This document shows, piece by piece, positions 26,793 through 34,032 of a stretch of 64,000 nt of DNA (position 1 is the first letter of the stretch; the number at the start of each line of letters is the position of its first letter). The DNA is from Spiroplasma alleghenense. Its GTDB lineage: Bacteria; Bacillota_I; Bacilli_A; Mycoplasmatales; Mycoplasmataceae. Position numbers and translations under genes: made by a program. The stretch lies in the NCBI RefSeq assembly GCF_003363775.1, contig NZ_CP031376.1, positions 62,001 through 126,000 on the forward strand, given 5' to 3'. Under the pieces are notes generated by a model. That model saw only the letters and a program-made list of their open reading frames with translations, was not told the origin of the DNA and did no database searches.

Positions 26793-28901
26793 ATGATTAA
26801 AATTATCTTGGAGAGCTTAGTACAAAAAAGCCTGCAAAAAGTTTCTGATTTATCCAATAAACTAAAAGTTTCTGATTTTGAACAATTTCAATTCTCTTTA
26901 AATCAATTAGAAGAAGAACATAAAATTGCTACGACCATTAACGGTGATGTTTATCTGATTGGAAAAGACTTTAAAGTAGGAACAATAAAAATAAATGATA
27001 AAGGTTTTGGATTCGTCAAGGATTTTAACGACCCTGATAATGACTATTTTGTTCCAGCAATTTTTTTAGCTGGTTCAATAACAAATGACGAAGTTGTTTA
27101 TAAATTAGAAAAAGAAAATGATGGTCGCTTAAAAGGGATAGTTTTAGCAATTTCAAAAAGAACTAAAAAGTTTTTAATTGGGGAAATCAATAAATCATGA
27201 GATGGCAAATATTTAGATTTTATACCAGCAGAAAACGGATTTAAAAACTACCGCATTGTCATGGTAAACAAGGCGGCTTTTAAAATTGAACCTGATCAAT
27301 TGATTAAAGTTAAAATACTTGAAGTAAAAGAGAAAAAAATGTTTACAAAAATAGTAGAAATAATCGGTAATTCTAATAAAGCCGTAGATCGAATTATTTC
27401 AATTGCTTATGAGTTTGATGTTCCAACCGAGTTTAAAAAAGAAACTTTGAAAAATGCTGAATCGGTTGCAAAGCCAATCAACTACAATGATGCTCAGGTA
27501 ACGAGACGTACAAATTTAATAGTTGATAAAAATTTAGTAACAATTGATGGTGAGGATTCGAAAGATTTAGATGATGCTATTTATGTAGAAAAATTAGCAA
27601 ATGGAAATTATAAACTTTTAGTTGCAATTGCAGATGTTAGTTACTATGTAGAACCTAGATCTGCATTAGATTCTGAAGCTCTATACAGAGGAAACTCAGT
27701 TTACCTAGCAAACAAGGTTTTGCCAATGCTGCCCAAAACTTTATCAAACGGAGTATGTTCTTTGAATCCTAATGAAGATAAATTATGTTTAGTTTGTGAA
27801 ATGGAATTCGACAGCAAGGGGAATATTGTAAGTAAAAAAGTTTATGAATCTATCATGAATTCTAAAGCTCGATTAACATATAAGGAAGTAAACAAATTTT
27901 TTGAAACCAAAGAAACTGACAGACCCAAAGAAATTGCAGAAATGTTGATGGTTGCAAGAGAGCTACACGAAATTATTGAAAAAGAGCGCGATATTCGTGG
28001 TTCAATAGACTTTGATGTTAAAGAGGCTAAAGTAATTTTGGATAGCGACTCTAATGTAATTGATATTGTAGCTAGAACTGTTGGAATTAGTGAAAAATTA
28101 ATTGAAAACTTTATGGTTAGTGCCAACGAAAGCGTTGCTGAAATTGTATTCAAAAAAGAACTTCCATTTATTTATCGAGATCACGGCAAACCAAAAGATG
28201 AAAATTTAATAGAGTGATATGGAATGCTTTCTAACTTTGGTATAAACCCAAAACTGACAGATTCAGATAAGTTGAATCCAAGAAATATCCGTCATACACT
28301 TCAAGAAATATCTAAACAAATTCCTGACCGCGATGAACGAGAATTAATAAATATCACCTTATTAAGATTTATGGAAAAAGCTGAATACAATCTTGATAAT
28401 ATCGGACATTTCGGATTAGCTAGCGAATGCTATACTCACTTCACTTCTCCTATTAGACGTTATTCAGATTTAATTGTTCATCGATACTTAAAACAGTACT
28501 TAATTGATAAGGATTTAAATCCAAAAAGTTTAACTAGAAATGAAAACTTCATTAATCGCGCTTGCACAATAATTAATGATACTGAAAAAAAAGGCGTTAA
28601 CACCGAAAGAGAAGTTAACAAAGTTTGTATGGCGGAATATATGACAAAATTTATTGGGCAAGAATTTGATGGAATTGTTTCGGCTGTTTTAAAATTTGGA
28701 GTTTTTGTTCAACTTCCAAATTGCGTCGAAGGTCTAGTTCATATTACTGAATTGGGTTCAGATTTCAGTTACGATGAAAAAATGCAAACGATGGTAAGTA
28801 AACAAAACTTAGTATATAAATTAGGTCAAAAAGTTAGAATAAAAGTTAAAAATGCTGATGTTAAAAAAAGGATAATTGACTTTATGTTTATTAAAAAATA
28901 A
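26793..28901 (+). CDS. rnr: Ribonuclease R
   Basis: RNase R is a processive 3'-5' exoribonuclease that degrades structured RNA and works with SmpB-tmRNA in trans-translation. The 702-residue product has the N-terminal cold-shock domain (GFGFVKDFNDPDNDYFVP), the RNB catalytic motif DGEDSKDLDDAIYVEKL with the metal-binding aspartates, HFGLASECYTHFTSPIRRYSDL (cited as YTHFTSPIRRYSD) and a C-terminal S1 domain (FDGIVSAVLKFGVFVQLPN). Two TGA tryptophan codons occur. It is followed by smpB after 12 bases, and the tmRNA gene comes next. Confidence 0.96.
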
Positions 28902-28913
28902 GGGGAGATTTCA

Positions 28914-29360
28914 ATGGGAGAACATGTTATTGTAAAAAATAAAAAGGCTTATTTTAATTACGAAATTCTAGAAACCTTTGAAGCAGGATTGGTTTTAAAT
29001 GGACCAGAAATAAAATCTATTCGTAGCAAAGATGTTTCAATCAATGAAGCCTTTATTTTAATTCGCCGCGGAAGAGCAGAAGTCCTTAACATGTCCATTA
29101 AAAAATACGAATTCGCAACAAATATTAAATTAGAACCAGAACGAAATCGTTATTTATTACTCCATAAAAAAGAACAACAAAAAATTTTAAAAAGAATTCA
29201 ATTGGAAAATTTAACTTTAGTACCTCTTCGACTTTACCTAAAAGACAATTTAGCAAAACTTGAAATTGGTTTGGGTAAAGGTAAAAAAAATTATGATAAG
29301 AGGGAAACTATAAAACAAAGAGATGTTGAAAGAAGAATTTCAAAATTGAACAAATACTAA
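28914..29360 (+). CDS. smpB: tmRNA-binding protein SmpB
   Basis: SmpB binds the tRNA-like end of tmRNA and is needed for ribosome rescue. The 148-residue product has the family motifs [48 protein letters not shown] and [20 protein letters not shown] near the C-terminus. Length is normal. A GGGGAGA site precedes the ATG. The gene lies between rnr and the tmRNA gene, so all parts of the trans-translation and non-stop mRNA decay pathway are adjacent. Confidence 0.97.
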
Positions 29361-29425: not shown

Positions 29426-29834
29426 GGGGATGTCCCGGTTTCGACAGGATATCTCTGGTGAAGAGTTGCAGTGGTGTGGTAGACCATAAGACTTCTAGGT
29501 TTGAAAAAATGCAAACAAAAAACGCGAAAGCGAAAACTTTGAAATGCCAGCATTTATGATCAATAACGCATCAGCTGGAGTTGCTTTAGCAGCTTAATAA
29601 TTCTTAAGAATTATAGTATTTCCGCAGTTTGATAATTTGTACATTATTAATTCTGTGTAAGCCTTGTACAATAGATTTGCCAACCGACAGTAAGGTGAGT
29701 CGAAATTATACTGTCAACGTTTTAATTAATTTTTGATAACTTCATTATTTGAAACGCATCCAAAGTTATCTAAACTGTAGAAACTTTTCACCGGACTATT
29801 TTGGACGCGGGTTCGATTCCCGCCATCTCCACCA
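29426..29834 (+). ncRNA. ssrA: Transfer-messenger RNA (tmRNA)
   Basis: The 5' end GGGGATG (29426-29432) pairs with CATCTCC before the 3' ACCA, forming the tRNA-like acceptor stem, and the 5' segment GTCCCGGTTTCGACAGG and the T-arm GGTTCGATTCC are standard. The tag frame runs from GCA at 29511 to 29594 and ends TAATAA: 28 residues that begin ANKKRES, contain ENFEMPAFMINNASAG and end VALAA. The tag resembles those of the Spiroplasma/Mesoplasma/M. capricolum group. The 3' CCA is encoded. Confidence 0.97.
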
Positions 29835-29919: not shown

Positions 29920-31917
29920 ATGTCTGGATCAATATGAACAATTGTAGCGGTTTGCTCGGCTTTTACAGGCCTATTTACTTTTATATATGCTTTAATTTAT
30001 GGACTAACTCGTCATTTGTTTGAGAAAATAAAAATTTATTATTTATTAATAATAGGAATAATATTTGGTGGACTTGCTTTGCTTGTCGGGGTACTTGTAA
30101 AAGTTATGATTCCAATACAAGAAATCCAATATTTGGCATTGTTTTTTCCGGTTTTAGTATTGGGTCTGATCATAATTTTCGTTGGTTTCATAGCTGCAAT
30201 AGGAGCTGCTATTATTGAAACAATCACAATATTGGTGATGCCAAATTGAATGCCAAATTTATTTCAAGCAGTTAATAATAATTATGTTTTAGCTATCTTG
30301 GTTGTCAGCTATGTAGTAATTATTATTATGGCGATATTCAAAAAATACTTCCAAAAGGTAAATAATTGATGAGTTTGATCTGTGTTTTCCCTATCAGTAT
30401 TAAGTTCGGGAATGTTGTTTATATTTGTTGATAATTTTACAATTGAAAGAATCACCAGAATCCTGGTTTTATCATCTTGGATTTTAACGGGATATTTATG
30501 TTTTGCAATTTTCAGCGTTATTGAGGCTGTATATCGTCATGCCTTAAAGTTAAGAAACATTATTTCATATGACCAAAACCGTTACATTCTTGAATCGGGA
30601 GCTAATATGGCAATTACAGATTTTGTAACTAAAAACAAAATCAAGTATGGTCTTTTTGTAAATTATTACATTGCCAATTTTGATAAATTTGAAAAAAAAT
30701 TAAATAATCGAGTTAAGGATTACATTATTCAAAATATCGCCGGACAAGCTTATAAAAGTTTTCAAGACTACGATGGAAGAACAGTTTTTTTTAAATCTTC
30801 ATACAAATTATTTGGTGCTTTTGTACCATTAGAGGAAATTGATTTTGATAAAGTTAATAATGCATATGAAAATAATAATAAGCCAATTCGAGATGAAAAC
30901 GACTTGCTTCATGCCGTTCAAATTACTTTAAATAAAATTAAGACTAAATTTAAAATTGATAACTATTTTATTTCAATTAAGTTGCTTGGCTCAGTTTCTA
31001 TTTACGGAATTCATAGCAATGATGTAGAACAATTGCAAGCTTTCAATCGATACTCGGAAACAGAAAAAGTTAGAAGAAAAAATGAAAATAATATAATCAT
31101 TGTTAAACCAACAGATTTCAATTCGCAATTGAATCAAAATAGAAAGATGTTGGCTCTAAACGAAATCATCGACTTGAACCATTTTGGAACAATTTTTGAG
31201 CCAATTTTTTCTATGAGTAGAAATGAAATAGAGGGCTTCTATTTGAGCCCTACAGTTGGGGGATTAAAATTAACAGATTCGGTAATGAAAAAACCGTTAG
31301 TAACAATTAGTGAATCGGGGCTAGAATCGCTTTTTAACCGCTTCAAAAGTTTAGAAAACCTTAAGGACGCTAAGGAATTTCGTAAGCTGCTAAAAAATAA
31401 AAAAATATTTTTTAACTATGATCAGTGGGTTGTCTCAAGTGAGGATTTTTCAATTAATGATTTACTTGAAAAATTATCAAGTTTAAATTTAAGTAAGCAT
31501 GATCTGTGTTTTTTATTTGATATTACCAAAGAAGTAACATCAATTGAATTTTTGAAAAAAAATATCAAACTTATTAAAAAAGCCGGAATTAAAATAGGAT
31601 TAACTTATTTTGGAGCAAAAGACACTGCCTATCAATTAATTGGTTCATACCGACCAGACTACCTTTTTATTGATGAAGAAATAATCAATAAATTAGGAAA
31701 AGTTAAAGAGTATCAGGAAATATTTGTAAAATGTCAAGAAATTGGGGCCAAAATTGATGCTAAAATAATTCTTAAAGGTATTGATAATTACTTAACTTTT
31801 AAAAAATTAGAAAAATATCAATGTGACTTAATTGCGGGTAAATTAATTGGATCAAGCAAAAGTCCCAAGCCGCAACTAGCAGATGAAACAATTTTTTTGC
31901 TTAATAAAAAAGATTAA
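29920..31917 (+). CDS. Multi-pass membrane protein with degenerate GGDEF- and EAL-like domains
   Basis: The 665-residue product has six or seven hydrophobic helices within residues 5-210. Residues about 245-345 resemble a GGDEF fold (NYYIANFDKFEKKLNNRV, YKLFGAFVPLEE) but the GGDEF loop is missing. Residues about 420-660 resemble an EAL fold: FEPIFSM, LCFLFDITKE, KKAGIKIGLTYFGAKDTAYQ, YLFIDEEIINKL and IILKGIDNYLTFKKLEKYQ line up with the order of EAL motifs. The EAL triad, the DDFG aspartates (here TYFG) and the AEGVE glutamates are absent, so c-di-GMP hydrolysis is not expected. It could sense a nucleotide or act as a scaffold. A GAGGT site precedes the ATG; mgtE follows after 23 bases. Confidence 0.72.
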
Positions 31918-31940
31918 TAAAACTAGAATGGAATAAAAAA

Positions 31941-33383
31941 ATGGAAATGACAGAAGTAAAACAGATTGAAAAACAGATTATCGATTTGTCGAAACAAAAC
32001 AAAACAAAAGAATTAAAGGAGGTTTGTGAATCATATCCACTTGTGGATGTGGCTGAAGCTCTGGCAGAAATTGATAACGAGGTTGTTCTAAAAATAATTC
32101 GCCTCCTCTCAACTGAGGACGCATCACATGTTTTTATTTATCTTTCTCGAAAAACTCAAGAATTTCTTGTTGAAAAATTAACTAATATTGAATTGAAAGA
32201 ATTAATTAATGATTTATACATTGATGATGTAATTGATACAATCGATGAGTTATCAACTGAAGCGGTGCGCAAGGTTTTAAAGGTGGCCTCCAAAGAAGTT
32301 CGTCTAAAAGTAAACCAAATTCTTGAATATGACGAAATGACAGCGGGAGCAATAATGTCAGTTGAATATATTAAATTACTAGAAAGTGATACGGTTTCTT
32401 CGGCGATTAAAAAAATTCGTGAGCTTTACGAAATAAACGAGGAGAACGAAGATTTCTTTGTTGTTGATAAATTTGATAACTTGGTTGGTTACTTACAATT
32501 AAAAGACTTAGTTTTCAATAAGGAAAAAGCCTTAATCAGCTCCATAATGGACAAGCGTTTGATTTATGCGCAAACAACAACAGATCAAGAGGATGTTGCT
32601 GATATTTTTAAAAAATATGATATCCAAACGTTACCGGTTTTAGATTCAGAAAATAAATTTGTAGGAATAATCACTGTGGACGATGTTATAGATGTTATTG
32701 AAGATGAAAATACAGAAGACATTCACAAAATGGGGGGGATGAAACCATTAGAAGATAGCTATTTTGATACTGGTTTTTGAAAAATGATGTGATCGCGAGC
32801 AGGTTGACTAACTTTTTTAATGCTCTCAGCCACTTTTATGCAATTAATAATAATCGGTTCAATGATGTTATTTAAGGTTAATGGCTCTCAAATATCACTA
32901 AATAGTAGTGTGTTTGTAATGACAATGATTATCTTGCCTGTTCTGCTTGTGGTAATAACAACTTCTAGTAATGCAGCCAACCAGTCATCAACTATGATAG
33001 TTAGAGCTATTGCCTTAAAAGAAATTAAAAAGGGAGATTACTGAAAAGTTGTTTGAAAAGAATTTCGTGTTGCTTCAATGGTTGGTGCTTTTGTAGTTTT
33101 CTTCAATTTCATTAGAATGATAATTATTTTTGCAATTCAGTTCAATGGGGATATTAATCAAACTGAACTTTGAACTGCTATTCTAGTCACTTCGCTTGTA
33201 ATGTTCATCTCAATAGTAACTTCTAAGCTAATTGGAGCTAGTCTTCCAATGTTGGCTAAGTACTTCAAATTGGATGCGGCCATTTTTGCCTCACCAATTA
33301 TTACAACCATAGTTGATACTTTAACTACTTTATTATTTATGGGAGTGGCTTTTGGATTTTACAGTCCAATCCTTGGGGTTTAA
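31941..33383 (+). CDS. mgtE: Magnesium transporter MgtE
   Basis: MgtE is a dimeric Mg2+ channel gated by intracellular Mg2+. The 480-residue product has the N-terminal helical domain (residues about 1-125), a pair of CBS domains (MTAGAIMSVEYIKL, VVDKFDNLVGYLQLKDL, ILPVLDSENKFVGIITVDDV read here as LPVLDSENKFVGIITVDDV) and five transmembrane helices from about residue 285 with the motif SSNAANQSSTMIVRAIALKE that lines the pore. Several TGA tryptophans. There is no long leader before it, so no Mg2+ riboswitch is present. trmB starts one base after its stop. Confidence 0.95.
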
Positions 33384-33384
33384 A

Positions 33385-34032
33385 ATGAGATTAAGAAATA
33401 AGCCCTGAACAGAATCTTTTTTAAAGGAAAACCAATGGTGACTTTTGCCTGTAATAGTTAAAGAACCATTAAATTTAGAGAAAATTTATGCAAATAAAAA
33501 CCCAATCCACTTAGAAATTGGATGCGGCAAGGGTGGATTTATTACAAATCTTGCCAGTCAAAATAAAAATATTAATTTTGTAGCAATGGAGAAAGAAACC
33601 ACGGTAATTGGGGTTGCTGTTAAGAAATCTTTGACCACAAATCCGGATTTAAAAAATTTGCGATTCTTAAATTCTTATGCAGAAAAATTAGAAGAATATT
33701 TTTCAACTAATTCAGTTGAAAGAATTTACCTTAATTTTTCTGACCCTTGACCAAAATCACGACATGCTAAAAAACGCCTCACTTTTACAACTTTTTTAAA
33801 TATTTATAAAAATATTTTAGTTGATGGGGGTGAAATTCATATTAAAACAGACAATGATAAACTATATGAATTTACTTTAGAAATGGTGGAGTTAAACCAA
33901 TGGAAGTTGGTATCGAACACAAACGATCTTTATAATGATAAAAATTTGCTTAAAAACAATATTCCTACTGAGTATGAAACAAAATTTCATAATTTAGGTA
34001 AAAATATTAACAAAATTATTATTAAAAAATAA
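33385..34032 (+). CDS. trmB: tRNA (guanine-N7-)-methyltransferase
   Basis: TrmB uses S-adenosylmethionine to make m7G46 in tRNA. The 215-residue product shows the SAM-binding motif IHLEIGCGKGGFITNLA near residue 42, the acidic ends of the following strands (FVAMEKETTV), and the family signature LNFSDPWPKSRHAKKRLT near residue 120, in which the tryptophan is TGA. The C-terminal ETKFHNLGKNINKI also matches. It begins one base after mgtE and is followed by a terminator, so it ends this operon. Confidence 0.95.

Follow-up and report, generated by a model that had tools for sequence, protein, structure and literature searches.

The locus studied here raises the question of what a membrane protein with the layout of a c-di-GMP enzyme, and with its catalytic motifs replaced, is doing in a mollicute directly in front of a gene for a Mg2+ transporter. 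It lies in the window, the whole stretch of 64,000 nucleotides from Spiroplasma alleghenense that was analysed (NZ_CP031376.1, positions 62,001 to 126,000), where a reading frame at 29920..31917 on the plus strand, the strand of all window features given below, encodes in code 4 a protein of 665 amino acids. The label EALp is used for this protein and its relatives. The reading frame contains five TGA codons, read as Trp in code 4, and two of the residues encoded in this way, W150 and W153, are conserved in the family alignment (32 and 31 of 36 rows, respectively). Hydropathy places the membrane part in residues 1-205 (29920..30534), with hydrophobic segments at 4-29, 36-63, 66-109, 117-145, 151-173 and 180-205; as segment 66-109 is long enough for two helices, the count is six or seven, which is what had been read from the sequence originally. 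The linker helix that follows the membrane part (residues 206-230, 30535..30609) is the best conserved stretch of EALp, with 9 of its 25 positions within the top tenth. It is followed by a GGDEF-like domain whose catalytic residues are replaced (residues 231-383, 30610..31068), assigned from structure and a weak sequence signal, and by an EAL domain without catalytic residues (residues 409-665, 31144..31914).

The EAL fold of the C-terminal domain is certain. The Pfam family PF00563 (EAL) matches residues 413-644 with an E-value of 2.3e-22 and 80 bits, against a cut-off of 31.3. Comparison of the EALp family profile with an EAL profile by hhalign, for which 17 of 19 reference proteins were used (the other two being too short or without the motif), gave a probability of 99.7 and an E-value of 1.1e-25, and the reversed and column-shuffled EAL profiles that served as controls both gave a probability of 0.2. 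A search of solved structures with the family profile reached an E-value of 5e-12; among the matches listed, 39 of 39 carry an EAL domain, and some of them bear the names GGDEF-EAL or GGDEF-family protein. The EAL fold claimed in the original prediction is therefore borne out by Pfam, by the structure-profile search and by the controlled profile-profile comparison. A model of the two domains together has a pLDDT of 45, which is too poor for domain placement; most of its matches are EAL proteins, interspersed with several other barrels. In members from family f3 (e.g. L039-L052), the EAL domain ends ahead of the part with the KID, AEGVE and QG motifs, leaving a truncated barrel in a conserved gene.

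The middle domain is harder to place by sequence. Pfam gave no GGDEF (PF00990) match in EALp even at an E-value of 10, far from the curated cut-off. A profile-profile comparison with 36 rows, in which 14 of 31 GGDEF reference proteins were used (the others were excluded as too short or as lacking the motif), was not significant, with an E-value of 0.024 vs 0.074 for the reversed control; a wider alignment gave a modest match, with an E-value of 8e-4 over 126 columns vs 0.24 reversed and 0.65 shuffled. A single-sequence AlphaFold2 model of residues 215-400, made with no alignment, is of low confidence (mean pLDDT 50, pTM 0.49), and its helices and strands follow each other as in GGDEF. Structure prediction had been suggested from the start as a check, and in the Foldseek comparison of this model GGDEF domains came out best in the PDB, with an E-value of 5.5e-4, a probability of 1.00 and a TM of only 0.40. 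With VIA-align, 50 of the 50 matches listed were GGDEF proteins, at a Z of 8.2, which is at the edge of the tool's class for a common arrangement, and an rmsd of 4.7 over 119 residues. The low-confidence model and the weak profile match suggest that the middle domain probably has a GGDEF fold. Thus, the original claim of this fold stands as probable from the structure model and the wide-alignment profile, its sequence signal being faint and Pfam silent. The GGDEF or GGEEF motif itself is absent, and SYKLF or NYKTF stands at its place in the alignment of the family. From alignment and conservation, we infer that residues 290-303 (FFKSSYKLFGAFVP, 30787..30828) correspond to the GGDEF hairpin, a stretch that would be conserved in a new form. 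Further along, SIYGIHS at residues 360-366 (30997..31017) is a hallmark motif across the order; when 32 diverse members are aligned, G363 is invariant, and Y362 and S366 reach at least 90%.

Motif counts for the EAL domain come from an alignment of 38 sequences of the window's family to the EAL profile. The Asp of DDFG is kept at the first position in one row and at the second in three, the Gln of QG in one, and the Lys of KID, each of the two Glu of AEGVE and the Glu of ELTE in 0/38. At the position of the EAL motif, four rows have Glu and 22 have no aligned residue. The structural Gly residues are retained, in 36/38 rows for DDFG and 38/38 for QG, and the Asn of the NxSA motif is found in 12/38 rows, including the EALp of the window. 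The replacements are patterned: the EAL Glu becomes Tyr or Phe, the second Asp of DDFG mostly Asn, and the last Glu of AEGVE Asn or Asp. These alignments confirm the early observation that GGDEF, EAL, DDFG and AEGVE have all been replaced. The best conserved parts of EALp, in an analysis made without L037, are the linker, FFKxxYKxFGxFIP and SxYGxHSN; the columns of the lost pocket in the EAL domain fall between the 9th and the 86th conservation percentile, below the linker and the SIYGIHS stretch. Judged by these residues, EALp is not an active c-di-GMP phosphodiesterase.

The enzymes that make cyclic dinucleotides were sought in the same genomes. A GGDEF profile search found no match in the window's genome, and a GGDEF search with Pfam follow-up found no diguanylate cyclase among 196 genomes of the order, in keeping with the original expectation. 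Eight weak GGDEF matches in these 196 genomes were considered as active cyclases and rejected by Pfam, seven of them being GdpP-type c-di-AMP phosphodiesterases and one an unrelated M26-like (M26-N) protein. Elsewhere in the class GGDEF is common (37/80 genomes at an E-value of 1e-20), and the ten genomes of the order inside that 80-genome sample gave 0/10. The diadenylate cyclase domain of c-di-AMP synthases (DAC) is present in 124/196 genomes of the order, and in most of its families other than that of the window. It was found in 0/60 genomes of the window's family, in a search that matched 11/14 control genomes, which makes this family a candidate for loss of c-di-AMP synthesis. Laboratory E. 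coli, which is not known to possess a DAC, was not among the controls that matched.

The EALp gene is under purifying selection. In 10 of 11 whole-gene comparisons w was 0.047-0.192, with non-synonymous change far below synonymous change; in three of these 10 low-w pairs dS was above 1, so that their values are rough. The outlier, L030/L032, had a w of 0.53 at a dS of 0.02, with too few changes to count. The 11 comparisons included those of L003 with L004 and L005 and eight close pairs elsewhere, L044/L047 among them, and the set corresponds to 10 distinct whole-gene pairs and domain-wise splits. EALp was carried by 41/60 genomes of the window's family and, in a wide-alignment search, by 69/196 genomes of the order, with a full-length reading frame in nearly all carriers; it is missing from 19/60 family genomes. 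One more genome, G197 (L101), has EALp and falls outside the 196-genome sample on which DAC and EALp were counted. Close relatives of EALp were absent from the genome_contigs, viral_contigs and plasmids collections. L037 of genome G195 encodes an EALp of 482 aa without helices, a broken or rearranged copy, and an N-terminal EALp piece lies about 200 kb from it, at G195:C1:1378165-1378509. L090-L097 of family f5 form a separate group of proteins, about 595 aa long, that have one helix and a degenerate EAL region, to which the C-terminal EALp profile matches at 96%; their gene precedes a proS-like gene, and no tie to DAC was seen.

Inspection of the DAC loci of other families turned up relatives of EALp immediately ahead of DAC. 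Comparison of whole-protein profiles confirmed them at probabilities of 99.7-99.9 for family f11 and of 97-98.5 for f10, with reversed controls at or below 2.2. Similarity in the helical part is not significant outside families f1 and f3, so that homology for f8, f10 and f11 is supported by the middle and C-terminal regions together with the order of the genes. Beyond the window's family, EALp occurs in 31 genomes of the order, 28 of which also have DAC, the three without a DAC match being G093, G105 and G191. In 16 of the 28, which belong to 7 genera and 3 families, f3, f10 and f11, EALp shares its strand with DAC and lies immediately upstream of it (G010, G011, G023, G029, G035, G039, G044, G049, G117, G131, G134, G140, G143, G155, G176 and G185). 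The two genes are at most 5 kb apart in 3/28 (G008, G015, G102) and unlinked in 7/28 (G018, G060, G072, G084, G087, G111, G167), some of these on different draft contigs; in the other two (G059, G188), with the genes on different contigs, a contig end is too near or a match too weak to judge linkage. EALp is absent from 96 of the 124 genomes with DAC. Among 11 loci measured, the gap between EALp and DAC is 17-30 bases in nine, and 59 and 110 bases in the other two. A DAC neighbour with seven transmembrane helices in L204 was left uncounted, since it matches the f3 profile alone (probability 87.5), and L206 has a helix-less piece ahead of DAC in a genome, G123, that is not among the 69 with EALp; L188 did not enter the analysis.

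Some of these loci preserve a longer gene order. L217 reads EALp-DAC-MgtE, and L220-L222 read rnr-smpB-EALp-DAC, one gene, and MgtE, the intervening gene in L221 being a nucleoside phosphorylase by Pfam. Neighbouring rnr and DAC, or DAC and MgtE, persist without EALp in L193, L194, L216 and L227-L231. DAC and mgtE are direct neighbours in L197, L199, L200, L209, L211, L216, L217, L219 and L227-L231, a conserved pair of synthase and transporter that also occurs without EALp. In L175 and L178 of family f8, a signal peptidase II-like gene and a large gene (860-879 aa) separate EALp from DAC; the DAC frame of L175 is short, and its DAC match is split in two.

In the window, EALp is preceded by rnr (RNase R, 26793..28901) and smpB (28914..29360), both counted as members of the putative ancestral neighbourhood by gene order and domain assignment, and by the tmRNA gene ssrA (29426..29834), its conserved upstream neighbour. 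The tmRNA lies no more than about 600 bases upstream of EALp in 35/36 family loci (L003-L038), the exception being the start-truncated L037; in two further copies it is upstream (L099) or on the opposite strand, about 2.4 kb downstream (L100). Behind EALp, a gap of 23 bases (31918..31940), as given in the original prediction, leads to mgtE (31941..33383), which encodes a Mg2+ transporter with MgtE_N, CBS and MgtE domains, and then to a trmB-type methyltransferase gene (33352..34032, with an ATG start at 33385), the conserved downstream neighbour. In relatives, the place of this gap is occupied by the DAC gene. Within the window's family, mgtE stands directly behind EALp in 28/28 genomes with both. 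The closeness of mgtE had been taken as a hint of magnesium or nucleotide sensing; the clue is real, and its explanation is a different one, as relatives have the order scaffold-DAC-mgtE and mgtE adjoins EALp in the window's family, which would have lost DAC. MgtE is present in 46/46 genomes of the family outside one genus, g5, in which EALp is found in 13/14 genomes and MgtE in 0/14, so that this genus must use another Mg2+ importer. A further 18 family genomes have MgtE and lack EALp. A strict pairing of EALp with MgtE was considered and rejected, since genus g5 lost MgtE and retains EALp.

We propose that EALp would be a catalytically dead membrane signalling scaffold. Its roughly seven helices may sense a signal at the membrane, which the conserved linker helix would pass to the cytoplasmic pair of pseudo-GGDEF and pseudo-EAL domains, and this pair would act by binding a partner protein instead of synthesising or hydrolysing a nucleotide. 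In the order's ancestor, EALp may have been paired in one operon with the CdaM-type c-di-AMP synthase (DAC), within a block rnr-smpB-ssrA-EALp-DAC-mgtE that, on the simplest reading, was thinned differently in each lineage. We infer this partnership from gene order, and most likely EALp tuned DAC, by analogy with CdaR and CdaA in Firmicutes. In the window's family DAC would have been lost, EALp kept under selection, and mgtE brought directly behind it. MgtE of B. subtilis binds c-di-AMP through its CBS domain, according to an excerpt of PMC8316131, and EALp-DAC-MgtE may therefore be read as sensor, synthase and target, of which the window's family would keep the sensor and the target, and genus g5 the sensor alone. 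As EALp outlives DAC in the window's family and MgtE in genus g5, neither would be needed for its present function; its present target in the organism of the window may be MgtE, where present, or something else. It is likely that EALp is a conserved scaffold without catalysis and that it was formerly part of a DAC operon. The whole chain, from dead scaffold through former membrane partner of DAC to retention after DAC was lost, we consider evenly balanced. More tentatively, EALp could serve the CdaM-type c-di-AMP synthase of Mycoplasmatales as its dedicated membrane regulator. A domain pair of the c-di-GMP type would in that case have been deprived of its original messenger and recruited into another cyclic dinucleotide pathway, the window's lineage then losing c-di-AMP synthesis and keeping the regulator without a known cyclic dinucleotide synthase.

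Other readings of the locus have to be weighed against this one. EALp might regulate MgtE, its pseudo-domains contacting and gating the transporter, as the unbroken adjacency of the two genes in the window's family would suggest; EALp is also followed by mgtE in 3/13 f3 loci with EALp at the tblastn level (L174, L183, L184). However, genus g5 retains EALp without any MgtE, the 18 family genomes mentioned above have MgtE alone, and in the DAC-linked genomes the direct neighbour is DAC and not mgtE, so that we regard this as unlikely. Another possibility, already raised in the original prediction, is that EALp acts as receptor for some different nucleotide instead of c-di-GMP, with a reshaped pocket that binds c-di-AMP or another nucleotide and shifts partner contacts. 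The patterned replacements at the catalytic positions and the linkage to a c-di-AMP synthase outside the window's family are consistent with it, but the lost-pocket columns are less conserved than the linker and SIYGIHS, the EAL barrel of f3 members is missing its final portion, and the window's family has no DAC match in its 60 genomes; this too seems rather improbable. A role like that of CsrD, in which EALp would tether RNA decay or trans-translation at the membrane with RNase R or SmpB-tmRNA as partner, draws on the position of the gene after ssrA in the family, on rnr or smpB as direct neighbour elsewhere (L170, L177, L171, L172) and on the E. coli record that names CsrD a regulator of CsrB and CsrC decay. 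Neighbours that vary by lineage are, however, what the thinning of one ancestral block would leave, and nothing seen in the EALp sequence pointed to RNA binding, which makes such a tether quite improbable.

Two more explanations touch the state of the protein itself. That EALp still cuts or binds c-di-GMP might be argued from an EAL domain well above the Pfam cut-off, and an excerpt of PMC11535214 infers that a coral mollicute uses c-di-GMP from the EAL region of a single, highly expressed gene. With metal and substrate residues lost and 196 genomes of the order yielding no diguanylate cyclase, this activity is close to refuted. Equally hard to maintain is a decaying relic without function, one of the options in the original prediction: EALp is missing in 19/60 family genomes, and L037 has lost its helices, with the N-terminal piece elsewhere in the genome, but w is well below 1 in nearly all pairs, the frames are full-length in nearly all carriers and the place of the gene is conserved, so that the selection test already contradicts it. 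The other option named there, a re-used scaffold, fits the dead motifs in a gene under purifying selection.

A dead scaffold that acts through a partner has precedents among degenerate GGDEF and EAL proteins. CsrD is a dead membrane GGDEF-EAL protein that controls RNA decay in E. coli, and LapD and CsrD pass signals by contact, LapD needing c-di-GMP to do so. EALp resembles CsrD and the LapD of Pseudomonas in its membrane part, its GGDEF-like and EAL domains and the loss of catalytic motifs, and, like them, may act by contact; with the caveat on the GGDEF fold, EALp would share the layout of a membrane part with both domains dead, and its action would pass through a protein partner. CsrD can also be aligned to the EAL profile with a comparable score (68 bits), and the structures that best match the two-domain model, itself of low confidence, include LapD of Vibrio cholerae. 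Unlike these proteins, EALp has about seven helices, shows no HAMP-type part and occurs in an order without diguanylate cyclases, and CsrD retains the EAL Glu and the KID Lys. The degenerate EAL proteins YkuI and FimX share the fold, the family profile matching FimX with an E-value of 5e-8 and YkuI with 1e-5. FimX binds c-di-GMP, whereas the binding residues are lost in EALp. GdpP (membrane-PAS-degenerate GGDEF-DHH/DHHA1) is likewise a mollicute membrane protein with a degenerate GGDEF domain tied to c-di-AMP, but it cuts c-di-AMP with DHH/DHHA1, and EALp has neither DHH/DHHA1 nor the GGDEF_GdpP signature by Pfam.

The nearest parallel for the proposed partnership with DAC is CdaR, which regulates CdaA in Firmicutes and is a membrane protein encoded beside the diadenylate cyclase, as described in passages of PMC8316131. 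EALp is alike in that its gene adjoins that of the diadenylate cyclase, in 16/28 non-family genomes. The two differ in that the C-terminal domain of CdaR is extracellular (same passages) and CdaR has YbbR domains, whereas the large domains of EALp are probably inside and its gene stands before the cyclase and not behind it; a Pfam scan found no YbbR domains in EALp. Thus, EALp is no homologue of CdaR and would be at most an analogue. An excerpt of an E. coli interactome study that included degenerate GGDEF and EAL domains reports that they show contacts (PMC5635695). Searches by title and start of abstract, with subscription papers and database annotations outside their scope, found no literature on the EALp family or the EALp-DAC pairing, and excerpts of PMC13022847 and PMC5508000 named no regulator of a mycoplasma diadenylate cyclase. 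Inactive GGDEF-EAL scaffolds are known, and their tie to a c-di-AMP synthase is not described, as far as the literature was searched.

For the biology of these organisms, EALp would be a testable candidate regulator of the mycoplasma DAC, being encoded by a conserved membrane gene directly ahead of it in three families. An EAL match in a mollicute need not imply the use of c-di-GMP, in contrast to what the excerpt of PMC11535214 concludes, and a second-messenger scaffold can outlive its messenger. If the absence of DAC from all 60 genomes of the window's family is true, this family would be a natural experiment in life without known c-di-AMP synthesis.
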